DNA of 64,000 nucleotides from a virus. The translations under genes were made by a program, and so were the position numbers. The stretch is from positions 62,001 to 126,000 of IMG/VR virus record IMGVR_UViG_3300022890_000014; one strand, given 5' to 3'. Shown here piece by piece: positions 3,295-37,637 of the stretch (its first letter is position 1; each line of letters opens with the position of its first letter). Below the pieces are notes generated by a model, which was not told the origin of the DNA, made no database searches, and saw only the letters and a list, made by a program, of their open reading frames with translations.

Positions 3295-3296
3295 AA

Positions 3297-3336: not shown

Positions 3337-3352
3337 TATTGGAGAAGGTCTA

Positions 3353-3403: not shown

Positions 3404-3429
3404 TCTCACACTGTTGTTCATTTGTCAAC

Positions 3430-3738: not shown

Positions 3739-3755
3739 CTAGTTACACTGACCAT

Positions 3756-4262: not shown

Positions 4263-4268
4263 AAGCAC

Positions 4269-4568: not shown

Positions 4569-4579
4569 TGTCCCTCCTT

Positions 4580-4594
4580 GCGTAAGCCTTACGC
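4580..4594. repeat. Palindrome copy, perfect
   Basis: Perfect core with central C, between two minus genes and two bases from the stop codon of the upstream gene. Confidence 0.95.
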
Positions 4595-4595
4595 A

Positions 4596-5321
4596 TTACG
4601 TGTGCATCTGAGATTTCTCATGGTCTACAGACAGACCACCATTCATTACTATTGCAGAGTTTGAGGTTCCAACAAGCATGTACTCGAAGTCCATGTACAT
4701 ACTGTCGTCATCTTCTATCTTTCCGTTACTGAACATCACGATGCCCTTAACATTAGAAGGGTATTTGCTAGCTATTGAGTCTACAGTATTAGACATGTTC
4801 TTACAGGTAGACATAAGAGAGATCCACCTTTTGAGCTTCATGAATCTTTCTGATGGTTTGGTTTTAGATTTTATAGATTTATATCTTGCTGTGTTGTCTT
4901 CTCCACGAAGTAGATTATCAACATCCATTCCATTGATCTTTTCTTCTCTTCCAAGAAGCATTTCAATAAGATGTCTTCCATCTATGCGTCCTGCCATGTC
5001 AAGAATGTGTGGACTCATTATGAGTGAATAAAGTGAGTTTCTAAGTATGTCTGAGATAATTTCATTCATCTCGACGTACTTTTCAATCATGCTTTTGAAT
5101 ATCTGATAAGTGCCTTCTCCTTTTGAAAGAATCCTGTGCGCTGGAGATCTAAGACTTGTTGACAGAGTATATTCAGTAAACTTAGTGTTCAATCCTAGAC
5201 CCCTGAAGATGGATATTATATCTCCATCTTCTTCCATGCATCTAATCATTCTTGATTGACATAAGTTGTCTCTAGAATTGATGATTGATCTTGGAGTTGC
5301 AAACCAAACTGCTTCTTTCAT
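4596..5321 (-). CDS. Hypothetical protein, first gene of minus operon
   Basis: A 241-residue protein, largely helical by composition, with no recognised motif. The start is ATG at 5321 behind CAGGAGATCGCC. A minus-strand TGGTACAAG at 5361-5369 could be its extended -10 promoter element. Confidence 0.8.
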   Translation of the reverse strand: MKEAVWFATPRSIINSRDNLCQSRMIRCMEEDGDIISIFRGLGLNTKFTEYTLSTSLRSPAHRILSKGEGTYQIFKSMIEKYVEMNEIISDILRNSLYSLIMSPHILDMAGRIDGRHLIEMLLGREEKINGMDVDNLLRGEDNTARYKSIKSKTKPSERFMKLKRWISLMSTCKNMSNTVDSIASKYPSNVKGIVMFSNGKIEDDDSMYMDFEYMLVGTSNSAIVMNGGLSVDHEKSQMHT

Positions 5322-5348
5322 GGCGATCTCCTGTTAGTGTAAATTGTA

Positions 5349-5378
5349 TTGACCTTCTATCTTGTACCAATATATAAT
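5349..5378 (+). promoter_or_regulatory. Sigma-70-like promoter
   Basis: TTGACC (5349-5354) and TATAAT (5373-5378) are separated by 18 bases, about 30 bases before the ATG at 5410. Confidence 0.6.
5361..5369 (-). promoter_or_regulatory. Possible extended -10 element
   Basis: Minus-strand TGGTACAAG resembles the recurrent TGGTATAAG motif of this genome and lies upstream of the minus gene starting at 5321. Confidence 0.35.
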
Positions 5379-5409
5379 GATTCATCACCCATGCATTGAG
5401 GAATGTAAA

Positions 5410-6462
5410 ATGAACAAACTAATGGTTCCTGGTAAATACATCAAGTCTATTACTACCGAGAAAGTTAACACGTACATAAAGGCAATAGCTGCTCTAAACA
5501 TAATTGCTTTGCAGGACGGAACAGATAGTATAGGACATATAGCTATAGCAGCAGAGAAGGAACTCAAGAGGTTCTCTAGTAAAAAGATTGAAGATCTAGC
5601 ATACGATTACAGCGGAAAGGATTCGTTTGTATCAAAAATGGTAGATGTGTGTAGGTGGGATTGGACTATACCTGGAACACTCCCTATACTTCTAGTAAAA
5701 AACTTACTTATGGCCTACAGGACCAGGTTGATGAACTGGGCTACAGGAAAGGAGTTTGGGGAAGCTATTCACAACAATGGCTTTGATAGGGGAAATAAAG
5801 AGAATAGAATGGACAACTTTCCATCTTTGCTTACGAGTCAACTCGAAGCTCTTGAGTTCATGGATAGCACATTAGATGCCTCTACTATGGCTATGTCCAA
5901 CTTTGGGATGTTTAAGCCTTTCTCTGGTGTAAACGAAGCTAGTGCTGTTCTTTTGAAGAGCCTTGTTGATATATGCTCCGCTCTTAAGCAAGCATGCAAC
6001 CCTATAGCTTCGGCATGCAACTGGAGATCAAATCTTCCTGTTCACTCCTTGTACATGATGACAATAAGAGCTATATCTGGAGGATCAATCATACCTACCT
6101 ATGATAATCACAGCAAGGAATACAGTCAGTCTCCAAACCTGAATATGCATTCCTTAGACATGATGATGTGCAAGAACCTCAATGATGTATACTCTGAACT
6201 ACACATGTTCGGACAGCAAATGGCAATCATATTCTTTGAGAAATCAAACTCCCCAATTGGCACAGTCGGCGGTGATATGATTAAAAAAATATCAGACATG
6301 CTGATATTCGAGTCCGTTTGCAAGATGGTTGGTTCCAAGGATAGGCTTGTCAGTAAACTAAGTTCCAAACTTAAGACAAACCTTCTGTTTGGAAGAAGTC
6401 GTATAGAACCACTGCTTAAGCTAATTCATGTGGAGTCTCAACTCCCTCGTTGGATTAGCTAG
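5410..6462 (+). CDS. Hypothetical protein
   Basis: ATG at 5410 is preferred over 5362 because it follows TGAGGAATGTAAA. The 350-residue product is mostly helical, with many Met and Ser residues and no motif I can name. It is a single-gene transcription unit with its own promoter. Its TAG stop overlaps the stop codon of the converging minus gene. Confidence 0.8.
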   Translation: MNKLMVPGKYIKSITTEKVNTYIKAIAALNIIALQDGTDSIGHIAIAAEKELKRFSSKKIEDLAYDYSGKDSFVSKMVDVCRWDWTIPGTLPILLVKNLLMAYRTRLMNWATGKEFGEAIHNNGFDRGNKENRMDNFPSLLTSQLEALEFMDSTLDASTMAMSNFGMFKPFSGVNEASAVLLKSLVDICSALKQACNPIASACNWRSNLPVHSLYMMTIRAISGGSIIPTYDNHSKEYSQSPNLNMHSLDMMMCKNLNDVYSELHMFGQQMAIIFFEKSNSPIGTVGGDMIKKISDMLIFESVCKMVGSKDRLVSKLSSKLKTNLLFGRSRIEPLLKLIHVESQLPRWIS

Positions 6463-6770
6463 TCTACATATCTCCATCTCCCAGACTTTGTTACTCTTGT
6501 CTCCAGTTCTGGAAACTCCCATAGTTTATTATTAAGGAACCATCTTCCAGAACACTGAGACACATCTACCCCAGGTATTCCACTTAACCTACTTCTTGTG
6601 GTTTGTGTCTTTTCACCACAGGAAGTAATGTGTATTCCTCCTTCTTTTAACCACGCTATCTTATTTCCAAACAGAAACATTTTGTCGCCTCTAACTGCCG
6701 TGTTGGTTCTGTGGAAATATCGTCCCTCAACTAATGCTTCACCTGCTCTGACTGATTGCTTTCTTGGCAT
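6459..6770 (-). CDS. Small conserved phage-type protein
   Basis: A 103-residue protein with the pattern NTAV...MFLFGNKIA...GIHITSCGEKTQTTRSRL. I associate this pattern with small phage or plasmid proteins of unknown role. ATG at 6770 follows TAGGAGTAAAAG. The stop overlaps the convergent gene at 6460-6462. Confidence 0.7.
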   Translation of the reverse strand: MPRKQSVRAGEALVEGRYFHRTNTAVRGDKMFLFGNKIAWLKEGGIHITSCGEKTQTTRSRLSGIPGVDVSQCSGRWFLNNKLWEFPELETRVTKSGRWRYVD

Positions 6771-6819
6771 CTTTTACTCCTACATGTTTTGTGGTTCAGT
6801 AAAAGACTTATACCCAATT

Positions 6820-6834
6820 GCGTAAGCCTTACGC
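6820..6834. repeat. Palindrome copy, perfect
   Basis: Perfect core with central C. On the minus strand its TAA ends the SNF2-like gene. Confidence 0.95.
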
Positions 6835-8649
6835 ATCATCAACATCCCTGAGTGACTCCCATATATTCTCAATATTAGGAACCAAGAAATCATCCATGCT
6901 AAATCCAGTAGATGTGATGGTCTGAGTTCTCTGTTTCTTTCTCATCGAAATCACAACCTTTTCATCACGGGTGTTTCTTGCTACGAGGAAGTATGCAAAA
7001 ATTGGTCTTTCTTGTCCATCTCTGTAGTTTCTATCGAATGATTGCTCGAAGTGCAGTAAGTTATCTGATAGAGAGAAGTAAAACATATAGTTAGCACACT
7101 GCATATTAGTCCCAACACCAACCGAAGCAGGATGAGCTACAAGAAAAATCTCTTCTGGCTCATCTAAGAACTTATCAAGAGCCTTCATTGTTTTGCCAGG
7201 TGTTTGCCCACCATAGGCAACCCCGTGATTTATACCTTTCTTTTTTAGCATTGCAGATATACTTCTGACTTCATGCTGAAACGAACACCATATTATTCCT
7301 TTGTTCTCTCTTATTTGAACCATCTCATCTACAAGTTCCTCAAGACACTCCATTTTTGCACTTGGTAGATCCTTCACTTCTCCTTCATCAGACTTGAAGA
7401 ATCCACTTGTTGCCTGTCTTAGTTTTGTGAACTTTGGAAGTAATTGTTCATATGAGGCTTGATGACCTTCATGCTCTGCAAACTGATCTTCGCATAGGTG
7501 CTTATAGAACGAACCTTGCTTTCTTCCCATCTTCACAGTCTTTAGAATGAGCGTTCTTTCTGGTAGGTCAAGCACGTCCTTCTTCATAAATCTAACTATG
7601 AATGGAGCTAGATGGTCTGCTAGCTGCCCTTCTGCCCCTCTCTTTGGAACCCAGTTGTATGAAAACTTGTTGTACTGGTATTTTTCGCGATAGGTTTTAT
7701 AATGTGTATCGAGTACGATACCGTTGTCTAGGAACTCGAATTGCCCGTAGTAGTCATCAATGCCGTTAGGTGCTGGAGATCCGTTAAGTATCATCTTGTG
7801 ATTTGCACTCTCAGATATTTTCTTTATCTTCTGTAGAGTCTTTGACTTCCAGTTCTTTATACCAGCAGACTCATCAACAATAACTAGATCTGGACCCCAA
7901 TCAATAATCCTAGGCATAAGACCAGCCAATGCTATGCTTGGGTTGCACAATATGATGTCGCACTTGGAGTCGAAGCAATCATCTATGTATCTCTGCTTCT
8001 TTTTACTAGTGAACTCAGACCATAGTATCCTATGGTCTAAAGACGTGAACTTTCGTATGTCACTTCTCCATGCATTCTTCATGGTAGATAATGGCGCTAA
8101 TACGAATGCTCTATCTATTATGCCTTGCTCAATGAGGAATTCTGCCCATACAAGAGACACATATGTTTTTCCAATACCCATGTCGAATAGAATTGCATGT
8201 GTATCCCTGACACCTAACTGCTCAAACATCCATCTTAGTGTTACTTGCTGATGCTTTCTTGGGTCCATCAGTGGAGACATCGCTCTTGGTAAATCAGGTA
8301 CTATTTCGTCATTCATGTAAGGCAATATGATTTCTTGCCTAAGTCTTACTAGAAGTTCTCTCTGTTTATTGTATATAGAATTCATCTTCTCAAGATATGA
8401 CTTTCTCATGTCATATTCTCTAGTCGATTCTATGTCAGGAACTAAGTCCTCAACTAGCTCAAGATTAACTCTTGACGCCTCCATTGTTATTGCGCCTGAG
8501 TCAGTCGGCGTAACATTGTAAAACATAGAGTGGAGTGCTGACTCCTCGTTCATATCTTTGTATTTAGGCTTGATTCGGAAGAATGATCTGTCCTCATAGT
8601 AGAATATATCTTTTTTCATTAGTTTCTCCATATAAGTATTTTCGGACAT
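6829..8649 (-). CDS. SNF2-family DEAD/H-box ATPase (helicase-like)
   Basis: This 606-residue protein has the ordered motifs of Swi2/Snf2 superfamily-2 ATPases. Walker A is DMGIGKT (156-162), the Walker B-like motif is DESA (259-262), motif III is NGSPAPN (289-295), and a C-terminal helicase half contains an SDNLLHFEQSFDRNYRDGQ motif VI region with an Arg that should serve as finger. By family knowledge it translocates on double-stranded DNA and remodels DNA or removes bound proteins. The stop TAA lies within the palindrome at 6820-6834. It is transcribed divergently from the gene at 8722. Confidence 0.9.
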   Translation of the reverse strand: MSENTYMEKLMKKDIFYYEDRSFFRIKPKYKDMNEESALHSMFYNVTPTDSGAITMEASRVNLELVEDLVPDIESTREYDMRKSYLEKMNSIYNKQRELLVRLRQEIILPYMNDEIVPDLPRAMSPLMDPRKHQQVTLRWMFEQLGVRDTHAILFDMGIGKTYVSLVWAEFLIEQGIIDRAFVLAPLSTMKNAWRSDIRKFTSLDHRILWSEFTSKKKQRYIDDCFDSKCDIILCNPSIALAGLMPRIIDWGPDLVIVDESAGIKNWKSKTLQKIKKISESANHKMILNGSPAPNGIDDYYGQFEFLDNGIVLDTHYKTYREKYQYNKFSYNWVPKRGAEGQLADHLAPFIVRFMKKDVLDLPERTLILKTVKMGRKQGSFYKHLCEDQFAEHEGHQASYEQLLPKFTKLRQATSGFFKSDEGEVKDLPSAKMECLEELVDEMVQIRENKGIIWCSFQHEVRSISAMLKKKGINHGVAYGGQTPGKTMKALDKFLDEPEEIFLVAHPASVGVGTNMQCANYMFYFSLSDNLLHFEQSFDRNYRDGQERPIFAYFLVARNTRDEKVVISMRKKQRTQTITSTGFSMDDFLVPNIENIWESLRDVDDA

Positions 8650-8661
8650 TATCTTATACCT

Positions 8662-8670
8662 TGGTATAAG
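8662..8670 (+). promoter_or_regulatory. Extended -10 promoter motif TGGTATAAG
   Basis: TGGTATAAG lies about 50 bases before the ATG at 8722 and just before a palindrome at 8679. It is also the right half of an inverted repeat, CTTATACC-TT-GGTATAAG (8653-8670), so both divergent genes may use it. Confidence 0.45.
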
Positions 8671-8678
8671 TATAGTAC

Positions 8679-8693
8679 GCGTAAGCCTTACGC
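8679..8693. repeat. Palindrome copy, perfect
   Basis: Perfect core with central C in a divergent intergenic region, directly downstream of a TGGTATAAG promoter motif. Confidence 0.95.
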
Positions 8694-8721
8694 AACAAAC
8701 AATAAAAAAAAGAGGTGTGTC

Positions 8722-9189
8722 ATGGACAGGCAGTACTACAAGGTCGTTAGAAGGCCGGAAAACTTCGTCGAAAAGTATCCTGAGTATGTATCTCAGTCAA
8801 GTATGGTATTCGAGCTGAAATATCGTCCTGATGAATGGACTAAGGCGATAGAAGGAACTGGCGTACTAGTTCACTACTTGGATGATGACGGACTATTTGA
8901 ACTTGCTAGATTCTTTAGACATGACCCATTTGCTGTTTTCAAAGTATCTGTTGAAGATGAAGTTCAGATGCCAAGCAAAAGGATTATAAGCAGCGGTTAC
9001 TCTGCGATAGTTGATAACTGGGTATATAGAAGTGGGATATTAGGAGAGGCTGAAGATTTGATTGCAGAATTTTGGGCTAATGAAAAACTTAATGTAAAAA
9101 CATCAACATGGCCCATACACTCCAAGGCATTCATAAGAGTCAAGTTGGTCAAAGAGGTGAATTATGAAGAAGTACTACATAATATATGA
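8722..9189 (+). CDS. Hypothetical protein
   Basis: A 155-residue acidic protein starting behind AAAGAGGTGTGTC. No motif is recognised. It overlaps the next gene by 26 bases, so the two are probably co-translated. Confidence 0.8.
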   Translation: MDRQYYKVVRRPENFVEKYPEYVSQSSMVFELKYRPDEWTKAIEGTGVLVHYLDDDGLFELARFFRHDPFAVFKVSVEDEVQMPSKRIISSGYSAIVDNWVYRSGILGEAEDLIAEFWANEKLNVKTSTWPIHSKAFIRVKLVKEVNYEEVLHNI

Positions 9190-9529
9190 GGACACAACTA
9201 GAGATTGGGTTGAACATATATTGAGAAACACTGGAAGGATGTGGACTAAATTCCTGTATCTCCCAGATGATAACGATGTTGCATACCTAAGGTGTATAGG
9301 CTACACATCTGAGAATAGAGGAACAGAAGCGGGGGATGTGCCCAAATCAACTCAGGAGTTTGCAGAGTTTGACAACACTCATAGAAAGACTCAGTATATA
9401 GACAGTATGCAGATGTTCGAGGAAGAAGACTTTCCAGAATACATGCCTTCTTTATTCAAGGTATACTTAGGTGAGTTTCCGTCAAAAGAAGAAGCTCTAG
9501 AATACTACAAGAATACAGATCTTGCGTAA
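9164..9529 (+). CDS. Hypothetical protein
   Basis: A 121-residue acidic protein with start ATG at 9164 behind AGAGGTGAATT. No family is recognised. It ends in Ala-stop (GCG TAA) supplied by the palindrome at 9524-9538. Confidence 0.8.
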   Translation: MKKYYIIYEDTTRDWVEHILRNTGRMWTKFLYLPDDNDVAYLRCIGYTSENRGTEAGDVPKSTQEFAEFDNTHRKTQYIDSMQMFEEEDFPEYMPSLFKVYLGEFPSKEEALEYYKNTDLA

Positions 9530-9538
9530 GGCTTACGC
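9524..9538. repeat. Palindrome copy, perfect
   Basis: Perfect core with central G. It provides the stop of the upstream gene, and the next ATG is 12 bases beyond it. Confidence 0.95.
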
Positions 9539-9550
9539 GAAGGACTAACA

Positions 9551-9886
9551 ATGACATTCTCAGAATTGTTTACGAATTTCCTGAAAGAAGAAAAGCTACT
9601 TAATGAAGGTGGAGAGTTCCGCACATGGGACAACAAACCAAGAATGATACGCAGAAACAGCAGTAACTTGGCGTCAAAACTATATAGCGAAGTAGTTAGA
9701 GCAAAGAGAGAAGATACCGGCATTATCTCTGATGAATGCTGTATTATATTCTGTACTGAAAATATGATTTCTGTAGTTGGCGGGGTAGACTCTATTCATG
9801 GTATAGAGAGTAAGCTGGAATACATGGATGAAAGAGCTTCTACTTCGGATTTTCCAACGCTACCAACTCCCCAACAAAAGAAGTAG
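9551..9886 (+). CDS. Hypothetical protein
   Basis: A 111-residue protein starting 12 bases after the palindrome, behind GAAGGACTAACA. No family is recognised. Its 3' end overlaps the convergent minus gene by 47 bases, an unusually deep convergent overlap. Confidence 0.7.
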   Translation: MTFSELFTNFLKEEKLLNEGGEFRTWDNKPRMIRRNSSNLASKLYSEVVRAKREDTGIISDECCIIFCTENMISVVGGVDSIHGIESKLEYMDERASTSDFPTLPTPQQKK

Positions 9887-11539: not shown

Positions 11540-11553
11540 CTATTTCTCCGTTT

Positions 11554-11568
11554 GCGTAAGGCTTACTC
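11554..11568. repeat. Palindrome copy, one mismatch
   Basis: GCGTAAGGCTTACTC matches the core except at position 14. Confidence 0.8.
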
Positions 11569-11743
11569 ATTTCTATTCTTCTCCAATTTATAGGCTGAAT
11601 TGCCTACTAGATTACTTATACCTAGTTATTTCTCTATGCAAGAAGCGTGCCAACTATGAATGATGTGTTATCCTAGGGGTACATAGAGCATTACTTTATG
11701 CAGATGAACATTGTATCGAACGCGCAACAGAATGCTCGCTGTG

Positions 11744-11860: not shown

Positions 11861-12132
11861 ATGAGCCGTTTCGATTCTCACCATTACTATTTGACCAGAA
11901 GCACTCTGATAGCTCCTGACAGCAAATTCTGCATAGGCTTACATACTCATTTGATACGATGTTCATCTGGACACCTAGAATCCACTCTGTGGGCACCATA
12001 TGAAGGATTCCTATATACTCATCAATTCCTACCAAACTAGTTCCCCCTAAAACAGACTTCAGACATATATACAGCCCCGCAGGTAGGTCATGAGAACCAA
12101 ATCGGAGAAAGTGATAAAACAGTTTATTTGAG

Positions 12133-12167
12133 AAAACTAATACAAGGGGTAAAACTAATACAGGGGT
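12133..12167 (+). repeat. Tandem direct repeat, iteron-like
   Basis: AAAACTAATACAAGGGGT (12133-12150) is followed immediately by AAAACTAATACAGGGGT (12151-12167), which lacks one A. Confidence 0.7.
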
Positions 12168-12204
12168 TGGAGGGACGAGGAAGAAAAAAGAATAGTATAT
12201 ATGA

Positions 12205-12238
12205 ATATATATTTAAGTTTATATATTTAAATATATAT
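12205..12238. repeat. AT-only inverted repeat
   Basis: ATATATATTTAA (12205-12216) pairs perfectly with TTAAATATATAT (12227-12238) within a roughly 50-base stretch of A and T only interrupted by two or three G. It is a candidate unwinding element. Confidence 0.7.
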
Positions 12239-12554
12239 AGTATTATTACTGGGTGGGCTGGCTGGGGTTAGAGATTTGCGCTTAGAATGCCTTACGGATT
12301 GAGTACTTAGAATTTTTTATTGACTATTTTCTTGATACCCATTGACAAGCAAAACGCATATATACGAGCTTACGCAACTTGGAAAAACATAAGTCCTCTA
12401 TCTATTATAATTGCTCTTTTGCGCTTTTTGTGGAAACAAACTATTAATGAGTGACAAAAAACGTCACTGTGGAATCACACAAGTATATGCATTTTGTGTT
12501 TTCTATAAGTTGGCATACTTCTTGCATAGAATATTTGCATACATTTATTCAAGT

Positions 12555-12569
12555 GCGTAAGCCTTACAT
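12555..12569. repeat. Palindrome copy, two mismatches
   Basis: GCGTAAGCCTTACAT lies two bases upstream of a TGGTATAAG motif before the primase gene. Confidence 0.7.
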
Positions 12570-12570
12570 G

Positions 12571-12579
12571 TGGTATAAG
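12571..12579 (+). promoter_or_regulatory. Extended -10 promoter motif TGGTATAAG
   Basis: It lies 60 bases before the primase-helicase ATG. The region at -35 is not canonical, as expected for extended -10 promoters. It abuts a degenerate palindrome, so a palindrome-binding protein would compete with RNA polymerase here. Confidence 0.45.
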
Positions 12580-12639
12580 AATAACAGCATATCACGAACT
12601 TAATCGCCACTATAGCCATAATCATCAACCGAGGTAATA

Positions 12640-15600
12640 ATGAACAGAACTACGGTAATTCAGAGGTACTCAGAAGCTATAGCTCCGTACTACAAGCCGC
12701 ATGGTCTTGTTGAGGTATGGGCTACAGGAAGTAAGAAAAAATGGACAAGGATAAGAATAGAGAACATCTCAGCGTGGACTGAAGCTGTAGGGAATACAGA
12801 CGTACATTGTACTCTACAGCAGTTCAAGATTCATCCAACACCATTCGAGGGAAAAGACAAGCATAGTGAGCCATACATAGCTCCGATATTCTTTGAGTTC
12901 GATGCATCAGAAAAGAGAGGGACAACACTAGAAGACTCTCGTAAGGATGCAATGAAGCTATGCACGTTCATTATAAACTCTGTCAATCCAGCCAAAGGAG
13001 TGTTGCGTATCTGGTACTCGGGGAGTCGAGGCTTCCACATTACAATAGATCCTCGTATGTTTGGCATACTACCAGACCCAGAACTACACATGTTCTACAA
13101 GGTTATTGCATTCCATTACGCAGAATTACTTAACTTGAAAACTCTAGACGAACAGGTGTATTCTGTACGAAGAACATTTAGGTTGCCAGATTCTAAGCGA
13201 AGTACTCAATGGGAGAGGGGTAAAGGAGACCTTGTAGACCAGCACAAGGTCGAGATAGAGTTCAATGAACTAGACATGATGTCTGTCGATGAGATACGAG
13301 AATTAGGAAGTGAGCCAAGAGGAGCACTATATAGTGACGAAGAGCTTGCTAGTATAGAGTTCAACCCAGACAGCACAAAATGGCTAAGGCATGCATACCA
13401 AGAGTTTCAGAATGAAAAAAGACTGAAAAACACGTCAAATAAGACTAAGGTTGTCATCAAAGCTGCTGATGACCAATCATTCCCAATATGTATAAAAGCT
13501 ATACTTGAATATGAGTTCGCAACAGACAAGCGCAATAAAGCCTGTTTGTCGTTGCTTTGTTTCCTAAATGATAGTGGTCGGTCGTATGATGACTCATGGG
13601 CTATCATTGAGGAATGGACAAGAGGTATTCCCTGGGACACTAAAAAAGAGGAAGAAAGAGTAGCAAACGCAAGAGCAATCATGCGTCGTGTGTTTACTGA
13701 AGACTCTATATACAACTTCGAGTGTCAATTTATCAGGTCGTGTGCTGGTGTTAACAACTCAAATAACGAGGTGTCAATACCATGTCTATACAACAACTGT
13801 AAGTTTGTCGAGAGTTCTGAGACAAGTTCAAGTGATGCTCCTAGAATTGAGCTTCAAGAATTCATCAGACCTGAGTACAATCGGACTCCGTGTAAGGCTT
13901 ACGCACACCTAATTGGCTTCATGGATAGAGCATTTTCTGTTCCAGCACAAGTAAGACTTAGTTGTCCTCATATTCTCAGTGATGGGAATACTCATCTTGT
14001 TCTTTGCGATACATGTGCAATGCCTAGTACTTCTGAGCAAATAAGCAGCGAAGATACACACGGGCAGGCATTGTCTAGAACAATGGAGATAAACCTCTTA
14101 CGTAATGGACTAGCCTTAATTGACGTGACATCTAAGATGAAGAAAGGGATGATACGTAGCTTGGCTGGTATTCATCCAAAGTGCCAGTCGTGGAGGATGG
14201 AAGAGGTTCAGAGTGCCACTATTAGACAGGTGATGCTTAAACCTCCATCAATTGATGAGTCGTCGTCTTCAGTATGGGATGCAGAAAGCTTTGAGGCTAA
14301 AAAGCAAGTAGGATTCCTAGCTACTAGAGAAGAAGACTCTATCTTGTCAAAAGAGAATACCGAAGTAGAGATTGTTGCTATGCCAATGGCATCACCTAAA
14401 GACCAGAGTATTCATCTTGCTATTTCTGGCATGACTAGTAGTGAGTCTGACTTAGATAAGTTTACAGTCACAGACGAGCTAAAGGAGCAACTATACTCTA
14501 TACATGCTGTAAAAGAAGGAGATACGGTAGAAGGTAAAGTCTTTGATAGAATACAGAAGATTGCATCACATATAGGTATTAGAGGAAGAGATGAGTTGAT
14601 ACTAGCAATGGACTTGGTGTTTCACTCAACTATGGCAGTAAAGCTAAGTGAGAAGGACATCGAAGAAAGAGGCTGGATGCAGTTGCTAGTCGTTGGAGAT
14701 CCAGGGCAAGGCAAGAGTAGTATCAGCAAAAGCCTCATGCGACATTACAATCTTGGACGCTCGATAGAATGTGGAGGCGCATCACGCACAGGCATCGTAT
14801 ATAGTATTGACATTACAAAGTACGGAAAAATGCTTGTTTGGGGTGTACTACCACAAGAGGATAGGCGACTGGTTGTAATAGATGAGTTCCACCAGTTAGA
14901 CGCAGAAGACCTTGAGATGATGACAGGTATGAGATCGTCAGGAATAGTAAAGGTCAATCGTATAGTTAGTGGAACAACACTATGTAGAACCAGAATGATA
15001 TTCCTTGCGAACCCTCCTGGTGATGGCAAGCTAGATGGGTACAGCTTCGGAATCAAGGCTATTAATGCGGTTATGACTAAGCAGCAAGATATACGCAGAC
15101 TTGACCTAGCTTCTATATGTAGGTCTGGTGATGTTAGCTTGGAAGATCTTAATAAGGTCTCTACAGATGGAGACTACGGAGAATATGAACCAAACTCTTG
15201 CAAGAACCTAATCTTATGGGCATGGACAAGGAAGACAGAACATATCAAATGGACTGAGCAGGCTGTTACTACTCTGATGAAGCAGTCTATTGATATAGCT
15301 AGATGGCTTGAGTGCGACATATCACTTGCAGAAGGTAGCGACATGAGATTCAGGCTTGCTAGGATAGCTCAGTCTGTTGCAGCCATGTGCTACTCATCTG
15401 ATTCCGAAGGCGAGAACCTTTGGATAAAACCAGAACATGTTGAGTTCGCAGCAGATGTATTTGTGCAATTGTCTACATCTGTTGGCAAAATGAACCTTCA
15501 TGTATATGCAAAGTCGTGGCAAGCAAGAAACACACTAACCGACAAGCAAAGAGAGGACTTAGGCAGAACACTAACTGGTAATACATGGTTCTTGGTGTTC

Positions 15601-15966: not shown

Positions 15967-16023
15967 TGCGTAAGAAGTATCATGTAAGTATCATGTAAGT
16001 ATTACTTACGTAAGGCTTACGCA
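15967..16023. repeat. Composite palindrome element
   Basis: A half-site TGCGTAAG (15967) is followed by two 11-base tandem units containing ATCATGTAAG, a CTTAC half-site, and a palindrome at 16008-16022 (one mismatch, ACG for GCG). Related composites occur on the minus strand at 35144-35189 and in reduced form at 51940-51982. The GTAAG spacing suggests cooperative protein binding. It lies directly upstream of the ribosome binding site of the next gene. Confidence 0.75.
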
Positions 16024-17309: not shown

Positions 17310-18209
17310 ATGAGTACAGGATCTCCAGAATACTTTCAGGTTCCAGTAGAAGGAGAGGTGGTTGATAGGTTAGCTGGCATAGCTTCTGATCTAAACCTTC
17401 CTGATGTAGCCTCTATTGTTAACGGAATATTGAAGGAAAAAATCTTTCAGATCACTGGTGAGAATCTAGCTAAACCAGTGGTTCAAAAACCAAGCGTAAG
17501 CCTTACGCAACCACAAAATCCCTCTGTCGATGTTATGAATCTAGCAGATGAGCTTATTGCTGCTTCATCGAATGATGGGATGCTCAGTAACTCTCTCGGT
17601 CCATCACTGAATAGTGAAGCCACTCTAAACGATCTTCCTAGTTCACTACAGAAGCAAGCGGCTACTTACGTTGCACCTGCTCCTACTCCAAATGACAACC
17701 AGGTAAATACTCAGGATAGCGAAATAAAGAACATGTTGATGTCTCTATCAAATGAAATCAGGACAATTGGAAGTAGAGTAGAGTCGATTGAAGGAGCACA
17801 GAAACCTGTCCCTTTCGTCCAAGCGGGGAAAAAATCTTCTAGACCTGAAGATTCTCCGCATTGGAGAGCCGATGGTGTTCCCCCAGGTTTGTATCCAAGA
17901 TGCGCAGAGACATTTGTGATGGACCCAACGGTTAAACCTGCTACAAGCGATAGATGCACTCCGTATACTCAGGTAAACAATGCCGAAGGTAGATCTATTC
18001 ATAGATTCCTTGGCTGGAGAAGCCCACCAAAGAAGACACAAGGAAGACAGGCTGCACCTGTTGTTAACCATAAGCTTCCACCTTCCATAAGGGAGGCCCC
18101 TGTAGCATGGCATCACTCTTCGATGTTTCCAGATCATAAATCTACCCAGGTAGAGTATCCCACTGATGACAAGAAGGGTAAACGAAGAATTTTCATTAGT
18201 CCTGGTTGA
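17310..18209 (+). CDS. Hypothetical protein with palindrome in coding sequence
   Basis: A 299-residue protein with start ATG behind ACGGAGAAATAAAAG. The N-terminal 50 residues are helical. A Pro-, Gln- and Ser-rich linker follows, and the C-terminal half is rich in Pro, His and Arg. A perfect palindrome at 17494-17508 is read as S-V-S-L-T-Q at the beginning of the linker, where sequence constraint should be low. No family is recognised. Confidence 0.75.
   Translation: MSTGSPEYFQVPVEGEVVDRLAGIASDLNLPDVASIVNGILKEKIFQITGENLAKPVVQKPSVSLTQPQNPSVDVMNLADELIAASSNDGMLSNSLGPSLNSEATLNDLPSSLQKQAATYVAPAPTPNDNQVNTQDSEIKNMLMSLSNEIRTIGSRVESIEGAQKPVPFVQAGKKSSRPEDSPHWRADGVPPGLYPRCAETFVMDPTVKPATSDRCTPYTQVNNAEGRSIHRFLGWRSPPKKTQGRQAAPVVNHKLPPSIREAPVAWHHSSMFPDHKSTQVEYPTDDKKGKRRIFISPG
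17494..17508. repeat. Palindrome copy inside a gene, perfect
   Basis: Perfect core with central C in the coding sequence, read S-V-S-L-T. Confidence 0.95.
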
Positions 18210-18284: not shown

Positions 18285-19703
18285 ATGCTGATGATTATTC
18301 GCAAGGAAGCCCAGAGGGCCAACCACATTAGAATTGGTGTACCTTCTGGGCAAGAGGTTGCTTCTACCAGAGTCAAAGGTAAGAAAGCTGCAATCAAGAA
18401 GCTTCCATTCTTTCAGTTCTGCAACACCGTAAGAAACGACCAGGGGTACTATGACCTTGACCATGAGATGCACGAAAAGATTGGTCCAGAGCCAGAGAGT
18501 TTTGGTCCTGTCTTTCTGACAAGCGACCATATCCATGAGTGTATCGAGTCTGGGTTTAGCTTTTGGAAAGGCCCAGGAGGAAAAGGAAAGCTATTTTGTG
18601 GTCGAGCCCTTAGTGTTTTCGACGAGGGTGTTATTCGCACTGGTAATGCCTCAAGAAGAAGAGGTGAAGACTTCTTTGACTTTGAATGTAATGCAAATGA
18701 ATGCCCTGACTTCAAAAGTGGTTCATGCGGCATCTTCACTAAGTACAAGTTTTTCCATCCAGAAACAATACGGTTTGGCGAGTGTGACATGACTATAAAG
18801 TCATACCGTGGAATGGGAGCAATGATAGGTTTCCTTTCTACCATCATGTCTACCGGACTATTCAAGATTGATGTTGAAAGAGGCATCATACATGGTCTCT
18901 CTAAGATACCAATCATGTTTGAGATGAGAGGAATGACCATTACTAACAATGGATACACCTCTAAGGCTTGGTATCCAACACCAGTTGTCTACAATGATAC
19001 AAAAAAGCCAGCACTACTTCTCGTAAAGAGTATAGCGGAAAGTATTGTAAAGCAGACCCAAAACCTGCTGGGTCCAGTAGTCTCCAATCAAGTAAGAATG
19101 ATTGAGGGAATCAAGTCAAATGAGAACATTGATCTTGAAGACTTCCTAGAGGTTATAGATGAGCCAGATAAAAAAGATAAAAAAACCCTTGACTATCCTC
19201 AAGAATCTGATAAGGTAAGTAAAGAGTTAGCTGATGCAGACAGAGCAATCAAGGAACAGCAGAATATAGAAGCAGCCAACATCAGTGCTCAAAAACTCAG
19301 AGATATGCAGGCCCCACAAGCAGCAGTCGAACAAGTTGTTCCAGAACCAGTGAAAACAGTAGCTCCTATACCAACACCAAGCGAGCCAACACCTGAACCA
19401 CAACAAGAGCAAGAATCAACACAGGAAGGTTTTCATATCTTCTCTGCTAACAATCAAGAGGGGACTATTAATAGATACCTTCTTGATCAATTAGAGAGTA
19501 GATTCATCCTGAAGGCAACATCAAAAGAGCATGGAACAATATCTGTTCTTTCTTGGGGTCCAAATCGCACAGAAATTGACATAGCCCTCTCTTCAAAGGA
19601 ACTTGCAGACAGGTTCGAGAAGTCAGGATGGAAGATTCCGAAGCTATTCTTTATGGCTGATGGCAGAGGACTTGACGTAGCATACGAGAAGTTGAGCAAA
19701 TGA
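18285..19703 (+). CDS. Gp3/RDF-like metal-binding protein
   Basis: A 472-residue protein starting behind TTTGGAGAAGAAAAAGC. It has a Cys cluster, FECNANECPDFKSGSCG, followed by a GFLSTIMSTGLF helix and a GIIHGLSKIPIMFEM strand region. I recall this arrangement from phage proteins annotated as recombination-directionality-factor-like (Gp3-like) or metal-binding. The C-terminal third is a Pro/Gln linker and a small domain (about 390-472). No integrase is visible, so a role in DNA replication or recombination is as likely as directionality control. Confidence 0.5.
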   Translation: MLMIIRKEAQRANHIRIGVPSGQEVASTRVKGKKAAIKKLPFFQFCNTVRNDQGYYDLDHEMHEKIGPEPESFGPVFLTSDHIHECIESGFSFWKGPGGKGKLFCGRALSVFDEGVIRTGNASRRRGEDFFDFECNANECPDFKSGSCGIFTKYKFFHPETIRFGECDMTIKSYRGMGAMIGFLSTIMSTGLFKIDVERGIIHGLSKIPIMFEMRGMTITNNGYTSKAWYPTPVVYNDTKKPALLLVKSIAESIVKQTQNLLGPVVSNQVRMIEGIKSNENIDLEDFLEVIDEPDKKDKKTLDYPQESDKVSKELADADRAIKEQQNIEAANISAQKLRDMQAPQAAVEQVVPEPVKTVAPIPTPSEPTPEPQQEQESTQEGFHIFSANNQEGTINRYLLDQLESRFILKATSKEHGTISVLSWGPNRTEIDIALSSKELADRFEKSGWKIPKLFFMADGRGLDVAYEKLSK

Positions 19704-19954
19704 CAAGAACAGGAAAATTGGTACAAGATACTCGCAAGAAAAGAATTTTGAAAGTAGAGTGTGCCAATTCGACTGTTATCATTATTGGCGCTAATGATAA
19801 CATCGCAAACATCCTAGAAGGTGGAGCCTTGGTTGACGGTAAAGCGCCTATGCAATTGCGTTGCATACATGAAATAGATTGGGTTGAAGGAGAAATCAAC
19901 CTAATCAGTAAGAAGAAACTGTTTCCTCCAGTTCTAAACGAAGAGGTTGCGTAA
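19700..19954 (+). CDS. Small hypothetical protein
   Basis: An 84-residue basic protein whose ATG overlaps the upstream stop (ATGA). It looks beta-rich and ends in Ala-stop supplied by the palindrome at 19949-19963. It lies directly before the ParB-like gene. No family is recognised. Confidence 0.75.
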   Translation: MTRTGKLVQDTRKKRILKVECANSTVIIIGANDNIANILEGGALVDGKAPMQLRCIHEIDWVEGEINLISKKKLFPPVLNEEVA

Positions 19955-19963
19955 GCCTTACGC
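19949..19963. repeat. Palindrome copy, perfect
   Basis: Perfect core with central C. It ends the 84-residue gene and lies 22 bases before the ParB-like start codon, so it could serve autoregulation. Confidence 0.95.
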
Positions 19964-19985
19964 ACCAATAACGGAGAAGTCTAGA

Positions 19986-21620
19986 ATGACAATCGCTAAG
20001 AAAATCCTAACCACATGCACCCCCGAACAATTGATTATCGTCAGCAACATTAAGTCCGGTGAACTCAAAAACGTCGAGAGCCTTGGCCGCACGATGCTGC
20101 CACCCACGGGACAGAAGGTTCCACTGCTTGTTTTCCAGGTTGCTGATGATCTCAAAGTCATCTATGCTGCTCTTAAAGAAAGAGGGGTTGAACTAGAAGA
20201 TCTCTTGGTAGAACTCAAAGATCTCGATAAAGAGACCGAGAAGACCGACTACGAAGAGTTAGAACGTATGATTGAGGGTGTCCGAGCTAATATAAAATTG
20301 ATGGAACAAGACCTCGAAATCCTTGAAGAAGTGGAAGACCCCGAAAATACCTACCGTATTGTTGATGGTCATCGCCGCTTCACCGCTGGTGTCTTCATTG
20401 GTCTCTCAAGCTTCGATATTATCATCCATCCCGCAGAAGCCGACCCATCAAAGGTCATCACTGACCAGATGATTTTGGGTATGCAACAAGAAACCCTGTC
20501 AAAACTCGACGAAGCCCGTACCTACCGCAACCTTCGCAGCTTAGGCAAAACACAAGACGAAATCATCAAAGATACTGGTAATGCCGTTAAGCGTTCCACT
20601 ATCCTTCAGCGTGGCAAAATCCTCGACGTTTATGAAAGAGTTGAGCAGTTCCCACAAGCTAACGAAGAAGCTAGCGTCTTCCTCGATGCAATCGATAACG
20701 ATTCTTTCAAAGTCCAGATTCTCACCAAAATGGGTCAGTATCTCGAAGAAGATGATGTCGCCGATTCTGGCTGGTTGTGGATGATTGAACTCGCTAACAC
20801 AGGCGTTTCCGGTGAAAACTTCGCCACACAATGCAACGATAAATTCGGTGCAAAAGCTGGCCCGACCTCAACTGCAAAGAGCACTGAAGAAGGTGGAATC
20901 AAGACCGCTGGTGGTGTTCGTAAACGCAATGCTTCTGAAATCGAAAAGACATGCAAGTTCTGGCAAAACCTCGCAACCGCCGGACTCGAAAACAGAGCCG
21001 AAAAAGGAGATGCCTGTAATATCTCCAAGATCGATCAGGCTCGCGTCGAGTACGCTGCTTTGCAAGCAGAATGCGATCTCGGTGGAGAAGAGCCTCCAGT
21101 ACCCGAAAGCTTCAAGAAAGCTGCTGAGTACATGAAGAAGCAAGAAAAAGCTGCTGAAGTCAAAGACAAGGAAGCTAAGGCCGCTCTTAAGACCGAAGCA
21201 TCGAAAGAAAAGAAAGAAGCCGCCTCTGCTGAGAAAGAGAAGAAAAAACTCATTATCGATGAGTTCAAGAATCTCTACAAGCTTGATGTCAAAGCTGTCG
21301 AAACCACAATCAAGGCAAACAACGCCAAGATTACCAAGCTCAACGAAAAGATCACAACAGAGAAAGATGAAACCAAACTCAAGAGAGCAACTGGGGAACT
21401 CGAAAAAGCAGTGAATATGCAACTTGTCTTAGACAAGAAGCTTGCTAGCGCTAAAGAGTCTCACGAAGCGTCTAAACCCGAATGGCTGAAAGAAGACGAA
21501 GCCAAGAAGGAAAAAGCCAGAATCGAACGTGAAGCCAAGAAAGCTGACGAAGCTCTCGAAGCTGCCTCTAAGCCAGTCGTCGTCGAAGCTCCAGAAGCTC
21601 CAGAAGCTCCAGTCGAATAA
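19986..21620 (+). CDS. Orphan ParB-like DNA-binding protein
   Basis: ATG at 19986 follows ACGGAGAAGTCTAGA; an upstream frame beginning MRKPYA is a by-product of the palindrome. The 544-residue protein has the ParB/Srx-type N-domain: VDGHRRFTAG (127-136) corresponds to the ParB GERRxxA box and MQQETL (166-171) to the ENxQRxDL box. The latter leads into a helix-turn-helix-like region (about 188-211). A charged helical insertion (about 60-118) precedes the GHRR box, and a long Lys/Glu-rich coiled coil (about 395-530) ends in an EAPEAP tail. Known ParB and Noc proteins load on palindromes as CTP-dependent clamps. No ParA partner is visible. Its C-ending codons differ from the neighbours and resemble those of the capsid genes, which suggests high expression. 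A strong terminator follows. Confidence 0.75.
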   Translation: MTIAKKILTTCTPEQLIIVSNIKSGELKNVESLGRTMLPPTGQKVPLLVFQVADDLKVIYAALKERGVELEDLLVELKDLDKETEKTDYEELERMIEGVRANIKLMEQDLEILEEVEDPENTYRIVDGHRRFTAGVFIGLSSFDIIIHPAEADPSKVITDQMILGMQQETLSKLDEARTYRNLRSLGKTQDEIIKDTGNAVKRSTILQRGKILDVYERVEQFPQANEEASVFLDAIDNDSFKVQILTKMGQYLEEDDVADSGWLWMIELANTGVSGENFATQCNDKFGAKAGPTSTAKSTEEGGIKTAGGVRKRNASEIEKTCKFWQNLATAGLENRAEKGDACNISKIDQARVEYAALQAECDLGGEEPPVPESFKKAAEYMKKQEKAAEVKDKEAKAALKTEASKEKKEAASAEKEKKKLIIDEFKNLYKLDVKAVETTIKANNAKITKLNEKITTEKDETKLKRATGELEKAVNMQLVLDKKLASAKESHEASKPEWLKEDEAKKEKARIEREAKKADEALEAASKPVVVEAPEAPEAPVE

Positions 21621-22702: not shown

Positions 22703-23917
22703 ATGACAGCTGTATCTGAGTTCTTAGAGAAATACAAAGACTTTACTCCGTGGAGTACCACCAAGATCGCTGCAACTCAATGCCCCTATTATACAAACAA
22801 GGTGACATCACTAGGACATGGAGACACCTTTAAAGACCTTGATGTTGTAAATGTGTTTGCGAATGAGTATCTTGAAGGTGGACTAACTGTACATGACATG
22901 ATGGAAAACTGGAATCGACATCATGTATACGGTGATAGACTTAAAACTGCTGGCGAAATGCTTGCCAGTAAGAAGCTCTCCACCGATGAGATGTTGTTGT
23001 GCTCTAGACAGTACAAAAAGACAAAGAACCACTTCCAGTACAATGAAGATGGTACTCCGAAGTTCGATGGTGGCAAGGTCTTACTTATCGAAGAGTACGT
23101 CGGTTTAGATAAGGACGGCAATCCAACAACCAATCCAGATGAGGTATTCTTCGGAGGAACTATGGATCTTGTCCAAGGTGAGCAGGACGGCGAGATCCTG
23201 ATCACTGATTATAAAAGACAGTTCAACATCCTGTCCGAGACTGACATCGCTAAGAAGTTCCAAACAAAAGTGTACTTGTGTATCTTAGCAAGAATGTTCA
23301 ACGCCACCAAGGTCACATTCCGAATGTACTTCCTTCGATGGAATACATGGAGAGATGTCTCTGTATCTGGCATCGAAGCTGCATTGTGGTGGGATGAGAT
23401 CTGTGATGTTGCTGAAGCAAGACAAAGCCTGATAGAGACGTGGAAAGACAATCCAATCGCAATCCCTGGAGACTTCTGCTCATTATGCTTCTTTGCCAAC
23501 GAGTGCCCTGCGTTGTCTCTTGATTCTTCGGAAACAGGAGTTATTAGAAACTCTGTCGATGCAAGCATAGCTGCTGGTCTTCTTCTCATTGGAAAGAAGC
23601 GTGTCTCTGAGGGTGAAAGACTTCTCAAGGCTTGGTGTTCCAACAATGGTAATGTGCAAATAGGAGACTCATACTTTGGGTATCATGTGTCTGAGAATCC
23701 TTCTTGGAATGTTACTAATCATGAAGAGTTTGACAAGATTGTCTCTGGTCAAAACAGTAAGCCTCAAGCATACAAGAACTACAAGAGCGATAAGCTAAAA
23801 TCAATCATGAAAAAGGCAGAAAAGGAAGCTGCAAAAGGAAAGCCAGAACTTCTATCAAGTCTATCAGAGCATGTGAATCCATTCTACAAAACCACATTCA
23901 AAGCTAAAAAGGCGTAG
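22703..23917 (+). CDS. Cas4/AddB-like PD-(D/E)XK nuclease with Fe-S cluster
   Basis: A 404-residue RecB-family nuclease. Visible motifs are GGTMDLV near 150, DYKRQ near 168 (the D...ExK-type core) and QTKVY near 187 (the QxxxY motif). Cys27 together with Cys259, Cys262 and Cys268 (C-x2-C-x5-C) matches the four-cysteine iron-sulphur arrangement of Cas4 and AddB nucleases. It should resect DNA ends or process recombination intermediates. ATG at 22703 follows AAGGAGAAACTA. There is no CRISPR array or Cas1 nearby, so a repair or replication role is favoured. Confidence 0.8.
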   Translation: MTAVSEFLEKYKDFTPWSTTKIAATQCPYYTNKVTSLGHGDTFKDLDVVNVFANEYLEGGLTVHDMMENWNRHHVYGDRLKTAGEMLASKKLSTDEMLLCSRQYKKTKNHFQYNEDGTPKFDGGKVLLIEEYVGLDKDGNPTTNPDEVFFGGTMDLVQGEQDGEILITDYKRQFNILSETDIAKKFQTKVYLCILARMFNATKVTFRMYFLRWNTWRDVSVSGIEAALWWDEICDVAEARQSLIETWKDNPIAIPGDFCSLCFFANECPALSLDSSETGVIRNSVDASIAAGLLLIGKKRVSEGERLLKAWCSNNGNVQIGDSYFGYHVSENPSWNVTNHEEFDKIVSGQNSKPQAYKNYKSDKLKSIMKKAEKEAAKGKPELLSSLSEHVNPFYKTTFKAKKA

Positions 23918-25353: not shown

Positions 25354-25358
25354 TGTTT

Positions 25359-25373
25359 GCGTAAGCCTTACGC
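25359..25373. repeat. Palindrome copy, perfect
   Basis: Perfect core with central C, five bases after a stop codon. T6 follows about 14 bases later. Confidence 0.95.
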
Positions 25374-25411
25374 ATGGACTGATATAACTTTTTTAGCATG
25401 GAGAATGTCAA

Positions 25412-27239: not shown

Positions 27240-27437
27240 ATGCAACGAACACTGGATGCCACTGGAATGTTTAGTTTGGTCTCTAGCACATCTGACAAAC
27301 TGGACAAGCTAATGGAGAAGCATCTTCCAATTAACAGCCAAACAAGACGGAAGATAGTACTCTCGCCAAAGAGTGTTCCTTCTGGCAGCAAAAACCTTTC
27401 GCGTAAGGCTTACGCAGGAAAAGAAAACGGAGAATGA
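27240..27437 (+). CDS. Small hypothetical protein, palindrome in 3' end
   Basis: A 65-residue protein starting behind TGGAGTACAGAGA. The palindrome at 27401-27415 is read in frame as S-R-K-A-Y-A near its C-terminus. Its stop TGA lies within the leader of the next gene. Confidence 0.6.
   Translation: MQRTLDATGMFSLVSSTSDKLDKLMEKHLPINSQTRRKIVLSPKSVPSGSKNLSRKAYAGKENGE
27401..27415. repeat. Palindrome copy, perfect
   Basis: Perfect core with central G, inside the last codons of the 65-residue gene. Confidence 0.93.
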
Positions 27438-30132: not shown

Positions 30133-30171
30133 TTTGCGGTATAAGCCTTTTACGTGGAGAAACAAATTAAT

Positions 30172-30186
30172 GCGTAAGTCTTACGC
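30172..30186. repeat. Palindrome copy, central T
   Basis: GCGTAAGTCTTACGC has perfect arms but T at the centre. A partial copy (GCGGTATAAGCCTTTTACG) lies about 35 bases upstream. Confidence 0.85.
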
Positions 30187-30197
30187 AAGGATGTATC

Positions 30198-31405: not shown

Positions 31406-31693
31406 GTGACACCGAATATGGAAATAGATGTAGTCACATCATTAACCGCCAGATACTTAAGGGAAGAAGCGGAGGGTAAAAAGCTATGTGGATACGGTTC
31501 TATGCTTAATGGAATGGACACTGTGGTTCGCATAGAGCTTGAGGATGGATACTTGCACAACCCGTGTATAGTATCTGGAATCGAGGAAGTTCCTGGCGGT
31601 TACACATATACAATGGTTCATGCGTTCCGTCCGATAGTATATAGAAATGTTCAGCCAGGACAGTTCAGGATAATGAAAACGTTTGATGCGTAA
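31406..31693 (+). CDS. Hypothetical protein
   Basis: GTG at 31406 is chosen because TAGGAGAGTAATA precedes it; an ATG at 31382 lies inside the upstream gene without a binding site. The 95-residue product is beta-rich. Its stop is the TAA of the palindrome at 31688-31702. Confidence 0.65.
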   Translation: MTPNMEIDVVTSLTARYLREEAEGKKLCGYGSMLNGMDTVVRIELEDGYLHNPCIVSGIEEVPGGYTYTMVHAFRPIVYRNVQPGQFRIMKTFDA

Positions 31694-31702
31694 GCCTTAC
31701 GC
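31688..31702. repeat. Palindrome copy, perfect
   Basis: Perfect core with central C. It provides GCG-TAA for the upstream gene, and the next ATG is 12 bases beyond it in the same frame. Confidence 0.95.
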
Positions 31703-31714
31703 AGGGGAATAGAA

Positions 31715-35143: not shown

Positions 35144-35189
35144 TGCGTAAGCCTTACGCAAGTAATATTTACATGATATTTCTTACGCA
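35144..35189. repeat. Composite palindrome element (minus orientation)
   Basis: It contains the perfect palindrome 35145-35159 (central C) plus half-site CTTACGCA at 35182-35189. On the minus strand it reads as a shorter version of the element at 15967-16023, lacking one 11-base unit. Confidence 0.8.
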
Positions 35190-35476: not shown

Positions 35477-35692
35477 ATGGGAAACAAATGGGGCGGTAAA
35501 AGAAAAGGTTCTGGCAGACCACTAGGAAGCGTTTCAGGGAATAAGAAGAAAGAGATAATATCTTTCAGGGTTGATGATGATGTGTACGAGCAATTGTCGG
35601 AACTAGGAAAGAAGAAGGGTGTGTCAGAAAACATAGTCTCTAGGGATATTATAAAATCAACACTAGTTAAGTTCAAGCTTGCTGGTGCGTAA
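35477..35692 (+). CDS. Ribbon-helix-helix DNA-binding protein with AT-hook-like N-terminus
   Basis: A 71-residue basic protein. GGKRKGSGRP (6-15) resembles an AT-hook or the N-terminal arm of phage and plasmid regulators. ISFRVDDDVYEQLSEL followed by GVSENIVSRDIIKSTL (about 28-63) is a ribbon-helix-helix fold with the DNA-contacting strand at 28-32. RHH proteins bind palindromic or repeated operators as dimers. It has a near-consensus promoter and starts behind AAGGAG. Its stop is the TAA of a palindrome copy, so it is a second candidate reader of the repeat. Confidence 0.8.
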   Translation: MGNKWGGKRKGSGRPLGSVSGNKKKEIISFRVDDDVYEQLSELGKKKGVSENIVSRDIIKSTLVKFKLAGA

Positions 35693-35701
35693 GGCTTACG
35701 C
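35687..35701. repeat. Palindrome copy, perfect; stop-start module
   Basis: Perfect core with central G. It provides GCG-TAA for the RHH gene, and GCGTAAGGCTTACGCAATG then runs into the next ATG at 35703 with AAGG as the only ribosome binding core. Confidence 0.95.
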
Positions 35702-35702
35702 A

Positions 35703-36718: not shown

Positions 36719-36721
36719 TAT

Positions 36722-36736
36722 GCGTAAGGCTTACGC
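36722..36736. repeat. Palindrome copy, perfect
   Basis: Perfect core with central G, at the convergent junction between plus and minus gene blocks. Confidence 0.95.
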
Positions 36737-36754
36737 ACTAGTCGCTCATTGGTT

Positions 36755-36839: not shown

Positions 36840-37628
36840 TTAGGGAATGTACTCAACGCCTTGTTGGATGGTGAAATTGGAAAAGTCTACATCCGCGTTA
36901 ACCGCACCAATACCAAGTGCGGAAAGCTGGCAAAGACAGGGAACCCCAACTTGATCCATCGCCTGAAACCCACTGATTGCTACCCAGCTTGATTCTGATG
37001 GTGCAGGAGTCTCAGCACTAAGGGAATAGTATATCTGAACGAAATCACCGAGCAAGACTATCCGCACCCAGCACTCATGCACATTGGGCATTATGGTATT
37101 AACAAAACTGGCCCCTGCGTAGCTCTGCATATAGCTAGCAGTGTCCGAGGAGTTGCGAACTAGGGACGCTATTACTATATGACTACCGCTGACAGTGTTT
37201 GCTAGAGTGATTCTGTTCTGAGTGTTTGGGATTATGGAACTTATGTAGCATTGTACAGATATAGGTAAATAAGTAATAACTTTACTACTGAGTTCTGCAT
37301 AAGTAAATGGCGCACCTGCTACATCATAGATATGCAACCTGCTTGCAACTGCTGTGATAGTTGAACCTCCCGCAGTTGTCAGAGTCCAATCAGCATCAAG
37401 CAAAGCACCCGCCCCATCCACAATAGCCGACAGATCGTTTTCGTACCGGCCATCCAGTGCCATTTTCTTATCAGCACTTGCGCCAGTAGGAAACGAAGCT
37501 TTTTGGTCAGCGGTAAGGAATTGAGTATCACTGGCTAGCGCCACAGGGTCCGTGACATCTGCTGTATTGGGATATGAAGCTTTTTGGTCAGCAGATAAGG
37601 AGGAATATAGTGTGCTTATCTTTGTCAT
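36840..37628 (-). CDS. Fibre-like virion protein, tandem paralogue 1
   Basis: A 262-residue protein, one of four tandem paralogues. The N-terminal part has two copies of a DQKASxP...PLALASD...LT repeat where the others have three. A shared core LDGRYENDLSAxVDGAGALLDxxW follows, then a beta-rich domain of about 150 residues that looks like a concanavalin-type sandwich and ends QQGVEYIP. It is closest to the fourth paralogue. Surface exposure on the tail or capsid is inferred from context. Start follows AGGAGGCTACC. Confidence 0.75.
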   Translation of the reverse strand: MTKISTLYSSLSADQKASYPNTADVTDPVALASDTQFLTADQKASFPTGASADKKMALDGRYENDLSAIVDGAGALLDADWTLTTAGGSTITAVASRLHIYDVAGAPFTYAELSSKVITYLPISVQCYISSIIPNTQNRITLANTVSGSHIVIASLVRNSSDTASYMQSYAGASFVNTIMPNVHECWVRIVLLGDFVQIYYSLSAETPAPSESSWVAISGFQAMDQVGVPCLCQLSALGIGAVNADVDFSNFTIQQGVEYIP

Positions 37629-37637
37629 GGTAGCCTC

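Follow-up and report, generated by a model that had tools for sequence, protein, structure and literature searches.

A regularly spaced palindrome array spanning a large phage genome and an orphan ParB-fold protein as its possible reader

A 17-bp palindrome, TGCGTAAGSCTTACGCA, occurs in 82 copies with two mismatches or fewer in a 150,744-bp virus record, and the placement of these copies is best explained by distance along the DNA and not by gene regulation. On balance, comparison of sequences leans toward the palindromes being loading sites distributed over the whole phage genome and read by an orphan clamp of the ParB type that the phage encodes itself. The wider picture, in which a ParB-type sliding clamp and a regular palindrome array with a spacing of about 1.8 kb cover an entire viral genome as virus-made chromatin or as a self-mark, with relatives pairing a protein of this kind with palindromes of their own, clustered in G023 and perhaps dispersed in G003, is more tentative and slightly more open to doubt than to belief.

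The window is the whole stretch of DNA that was analyzed, 64,000 nucleotides at positions 62001 to 126000 of the record. An RNA polymerase (RNAP)-like protein of 2,520 amino acids is encoded by a single open frame at record positions 2278 to 9840 and matches PHROGs of phage RNA polymerase subunits. Together with the genes for a DNA polymerase III alpha-like protein, a terminase large subunit, and a RecBCD inhibitor similar to T7 gp5.9, this indicates a large tailed phage. A tyrosine integrase was not detected in the record and a TetR_N domain was not detected in the phage; an HTH_3 protein (record positions 23450 to 23794) and a winged-helix protein (record positions 130695 to 131549) are encoded. 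The window also contains four consecutive paralogous genes on the minus strand (positions 36840 to 40370), the products of which share repeats and are 262 to 297 amino acids long, and an AT-rich, gene-poor region (positions 11999 to 12640) with TATATATTTAAATATATA and a weakened copy of the palindrome, which is a possible replication origin.

The initial annotation had claimed dozens of palindromes, and these were recovered: 33 of the 82 copies are located inside the window, and the reversed control of TGCGTAAGSCTTACGCA had 0 copies in the record. The copies in the window, none of which has a strand, are as follows (window positions).

405–421, palindrome copy
2685–2701, palindrome copy
4579–4595, palindrome copy
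6819–6835, palindrome copy
8678–8694, palindrome copy
9523–9539, palindrome copy, overlaps the stop codon of gene 9164–9529
11553–11569, palindrome copy
13889–13905, palindrome copy with 2 mismatches, within a primase-like gene (1,075 amino acids)
16007–16023, palindrome copy
17493–17509, palindrome copy, within gene 17310–18209
19948–19964, palindrome copy, overlaps the stop of gene 19700–19954, 21 nt before the parB-like start codon
22660–22676, palindrome copy
25358–25374, palindrome copy
27400–27416, palindrome copy
30171–30187, palindrome copy with a central T
31687–31703, palindrome copy
35144–35160, palindrome copy
35686–35702, palindrome copy
36721–36737, palindrome copy
38544–38560, palindrome copy
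40382–40398, palindrome copy
42560–42576, palindrome copy
46456–46472, palindrome copy
47534–47550, palindrome copy
49315–49331, palindrome copy
50186–50202, palindrome copy
51966–51982, palindrome copy
53615–53631, palindrome copy
55695–55711, palindrome copy, within gene 55202–56062
56441–56457, palindrome copy
57554–57570, palindrome copy
59605–59621, perfect palindrome copy, within gene 58156–61620 (1,154 amino acids)
62652–62668, palindrome copy

Over the 82 sites of the record, the mean gap between palindromes was 1,833 bp with a coefficient of variation (CV) of 0.44 and a maximum of 3.9 kb, compared to a CV of about 1.0 for random positions, for random gene junctions, and for the stoperators of mycobacteriophage Bxb1. 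None of 5,000 random draws from uniform, random-junction, and mixed null models was as regular, and the palindrome counts per 5-kb window had a variance-to-mean ratio of 0.23. No base is located farther than 1.94 kb from a palindrome and 97.5% of the genome is within 1.5 kb of one; random placement brought 80% within this distance, and in each of 300 draws its maximum distance was at least 2.8 kb.

Sixty-seven copies were assigned to gene junctions and 15 to the interior of genes, a division that is approximate because the gene boundaries came from a simple gene caller of our own. Genes were avoided where junctions exist, and three copies are inside the 7.6-kb RNAP gene. The in-gene sites were 2.2 kb away from the nearest junction site compared to an expected 0.97 kb (p = 6e-6), which is farther than for coding DNA in general, and they therefore occupy the gaps that long genes leave. 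Divergent junctions were not enriched, with a site at 6 of 14 of them and at 56 of 126 co-directional junctions. Seventeen copies contain the stop codon of the upstream gene (GCG-TAA), and the start codon typically follows 10 to 13 nt past a junction palindrome, which just fits a ribosome site. Beyond this ribosome site, no conservation of the flanks was found, so that the palindrome is not part of a longer mobile element, and the center base had no clear bias with respect to the gene strand. Regular, independent of direction, and present also inside genes, the sites are more compatible with a genome-wide mark at the level of the DNA than with promoter operators or hairpins in RNA. The phage-wide palindrome system that had been proposed is supported as one acting on DNA. 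The palindrome just before the start of the parB-like gene, to which the initial annotation had drawn attention, is indeed present 21 nt upstream, but it was rejected as evidence for a link between gene and palindrome: since about 40% of the gene junctions carry a site, this copy is not special and proves nothing on autoregulation.

The open reading frame in front of which this copy is located had been read as a ParB-family gene, and this was borne out by its matches. The 544-amino-acid product matched PHROG 6218, “ParB-like partition protein” (E = 5.6e-11), PHROG 1033 (E = 1e-4), and PDB 1vz0, the Spo0J of Thermus (E = 1.8e-6), with a subthreshold match to Pfam ParB_N (13.8 bits). A structure model built with 25 relatives reached a pLDDT of mostly 75 to 91 at residues 90 to 210, and a Foldseek search with the predicted model gave ParB, Noc, and KorB as the best PDB matches; a single-sequence model without an alignment was uninformative for the ParB domain. 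A search of IMG/VR gave no close relatives of either the protein or the palindrome. The gene and the parts of its product are the following (window positions).

19986–21620, plus strand, orphan ParB-fold protein of 544 amino acids (PHROG 6218, PDB 1vz0, Foldseek ParB/Noc/KorB)
20367–20378, plus strand, GxxR phosphate box (Box II), residues 128–131 GHRR, invariant in the alignment
20475–20498, plus strand, degenerate Box III, residues 164–171 LGMQQETL (consensus ENMQRxDL), from the alignment
20544–20630, plus strand, helix-turn-helix (HTH) region, residues 187–215, from the Spo0J alignment, model pLDDT of about 70 to 90
21105–21563, plus strand, long C-terminal coiled coil, residues about 374–526, from DSSP and the single-sequence model, pLDDT of about 52 to 92

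Most of the architecture described by the initial annotation could be found again: the GxxR box as G128-H-R-R131, the HTH in the Spo0J alignment and the model, and the long coiled coil, as predicted by the model, at the C terminus. The ENxQR-like box has an aligned counterpart, but this is degenerate, with the core LGMQQ instead of ENMQR. Box I (C motif, NPRxx) was not recognizable in the alignment; the model contains a helical N-terminal insertion at this place and, with low confidence, a helix at residues 2 to 10. Homology of the N-terminal domain and the HTH assign the protein to the ParB fold by sequence and fold. The orphan status was confirmed insofar as searches of the complete 150.7-kb record detected neither a ParA (AAA_31) nor a second ParB. 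Since a ParA partner is absent and Box III deviates from the consensus, the protein was classified only as a ParB-fold protein. Phages frequently encode orphan ParB-CTPase-fold proteins whose boxes have diverged; in orphan ParB-fold proteins, Box III is often lost and other nucleotides can be bound (PMC12704722), so that a CTP switch cannot be assumed here. In KorB, the equivalent Box III change N146A led to a loss of hydrolysis and to impaired clamp closing (PMC11790492).

Relatives of the RNAP are encoded in 60 IMG/VR loci; the RNAP as a single-sequence query found none. HMM searches of 41 records with RNAP relatives yielded one ParB-fold gene, in the 176,864-bp record G023. This phage contains 16 perfect copies of a different palindrome, the 16-mer AATGGCCATGGCCATT, which span about 2.6 kb when counted across both contig ends; both ends are located in the same 35-bp tandem array, which holds some of the copies. 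They are clustered and not dispersed, about 55 kb from the parB-like gene, and no ParA was found in G023. The cluster at the record ends resembles a centromere or an origin. In seven ParB-negative relatives of 172 to 193 kb (D181, Arash, G005, G006, G009, G021, and G040), no perfect palindrome of at least 14 bp exceeded 4 copies, and the few palindromes present were gapped, terminator-like stems or AT runs. Co-occurrence of gene and motif in related phages had been set beforehand as a check, and the proposal withstood it: among nine large phages sharing the RNAP, both phages with a ParB-like gene (this one and G023) had a multicopy perfect palindrome and none of the seven without the gene did, a pattern that has an exact probability of 1/36 if gene and palindrome were independent, with two ParB-positive phages only. 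As a comparison of sequences, this supports the ParB-like protein as a candidate reader of the palindrome. Another RNAP relative, the 27-kb fragment G003, contains four copies of GCGAAACCGGTTTCGC 5 to 7 kb apart, and a second contig of its sample (3300009503) has two more, 7.4 kb apart. The GCGAAACCGGTTTCGC contigs of this sample (L028, L087, and L158) probably represent a second case of a phage in which a palindrome is dispersed; no ParB gene was seen in the 27-kb fragment, with most of that genome missing. At other phage ParB genes, multicopy palindromes formed small clusters at some loci and were absent from most, which is not decisive.

A scan of bacterial and archaeal genomes for the 17-mer gave 30 hits, near the number expected by chance, and none of the genomes scanned had more than one local copy. 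The identical 17-mer is located upstream of TetR-like genes in Actinobacteria (L202, L212, L213, L214, L220, and L199), an assignment made by reading the open reading frames, which was done in L202, L220, and L199 only. Variants such as TGCGTATGACATACGC are adjacent to it in several of these loci, where it is probably an operator. Because of these identical copies, the 17-mer alone does not name its reader. The hits in Fibrobacter were rejected as a host signature: all are in the same flanking sequence and thus represent a single shared occurrence, with one repeat-protein gene in the three loci for which open reading frames were listed.

If the palindromes are read by the ParB-like protein, a dimer would recognize the site via its HTHs and may close as a nucleotide-switched clamp, which would spread or slide about 1 to 2 kb from each palindrome, as KorB does. 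Between them, the clamps from neighboring palindromes would cover the replicating phage genome in its entirety; the coiled coil may link or bridge them, or may recruit a partner. Such clamps would likely serve genome-wide marking, compaction, or protection of the phage DNA and not partition, be it as a nucleoid-like organization or to tell phage from host DNA. Features that argue against this reader are the degenerate Box III, the unrecognizable Box I, the encoded HTH_3 and winged-helix proteins, the clustering of the sites in G023, the 17-mer in Actinobacteria, and the G003 fragment without a visible ParB gene.

By analogy, the protein may work most like KorB or Noc, with KorB being at least as close an analogue as Noc. 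The KorB operator site has a central S, and plasmid RK2 has far fewer KorB sites than the 82 found here. KorB, the ParB-family CTPase clamp and repressor of this plasmid, can slide as far as 1.5 kb away from its site (PMC11790492); this distance matches the spacing of the palindromes and was counted in favor of reading by a clamp. KorB and the phage system have in common a ParB fold, an HTH, and dispersed palindromes, which are operators in the case of KorB. The KorB sites are tied to promoters and KorB has the partner KorA, whereas in the phage the sites are evenly spaced without enrichment at divergent junctions, and the protein has a long coiled coil. The palindromes have about 30 times the density of Noc sites. 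Noc, which acts in nucleoid occlusion in Bacillus, is an orphan relative of ParB that recognizes 16-bp sites dispersed in large numbers (PMC8429893), and the phage likewise combines an orphan with dispersed palindromes, its ParB-like protein being the candidate reader. Noc binds the membrane, to which an N-terminal amphipathic helix targets it, and has its sites on the host chromosome, whereas the sites described here are on the phage. The 15-bp SPBRE repeat of SPbeta is also dispersed in a phage genome, but at about 10 sites, which are located at promoters and read by the recombinase-derived repressor MrpR (PMC10516654). Among other phage ParB-CTPase-fold proteins, orphans with divergent boxes are likewise frequent, with no site arrays described for them in the available part of PMC12704722.

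Alternatively, the palindromes may be operators or stoperator-like sites, at which a conventional phage HTH regulator, for instance the encoded HTH_3 protein, would block transcription initiation or elongation genome-wide. A 17-bp palindrome has a usual size for a dimeric repressor, the identical 17-mer upstream of the TetR-like genes of Actinobacteria fits this, and many copies are in short intergenic gaps ahead of start codons. Mycobacteriophage genomes contain tens of stoperator repeats, 24 in L5 and 34 in Bxb1 or one per 1.5 to 2.2 kb (PMC3029335), which equals the density of the palindromes. However, stoperators are asymmetric 13-bp sites, and those of Bxb1, when measured here, were irregular (CV, 0.93 to 0.99; variance-to-mean ratio per 5 kb, 1.6 to 2.2) and oriented with transcription, whereas the palindromes are symmetric, regular (0.44 and 0.23), unbiased by strand at the center base, and found also inside genes. 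The missing enrichment at divergent, promoter-bearing junctions and the lack of a detected tyrosine integrase or TetR_N domain also disagree with such regulation, which is unlikely. An element at the RNA level, a hairpin next to ribosome sites affecting mRNA processing, stability, or translation, would agree with the palindromes that in many operons are 10 to 13 nt before a start codon and overlap the previous stop; the unbiased center base at junctions, the perfect copies inside long genes, a spacing that follows distance and not operons, and the unconserved flanks make it very improbable.

The palindromes could also serve packaging or compaction through a different reader, either a nucleoid or partition protein of the host or another DNA-binding protein of the phage, with the ParB-like protein being unrelated to them. 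The regularity of the sites applies here as it does to a ParB clamp, and the phage encodes further DNA-binding candidates; on the other hand, no scanned bacterial or archaeal genome had the 17-mer in more than one local copy, and the gene occurs together with a palindrome in relatives, leaving this reading rather improbable. A partition centromere of a plasmid-like prophage, as in the ParABS systems of P1 or N15, would account for the ParB-fold gene and for the centromere-like cluster in G023, but without a ParA in this phage or in G023, without an integrase found, and with 82 dispersed sites that are not a centromere, it is hardly credible.

To our knowledge, a gene-independent rule for the spacing of sites over an entire phage genome is undescribed in the literature searched. 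Should another protein read the palindromes, the regular array would still need a new explanation. If, however, the ParB-type clamp reads them, the virus would be marking or organizing its DNA in a new manner, and the strict spacing would be a natural readout of the distance over which the clamp spreads. ParB-type CTP switches, with their roles in segregation, division control, and plasmid silencing, would then also serve to organize or mark viral DNA.
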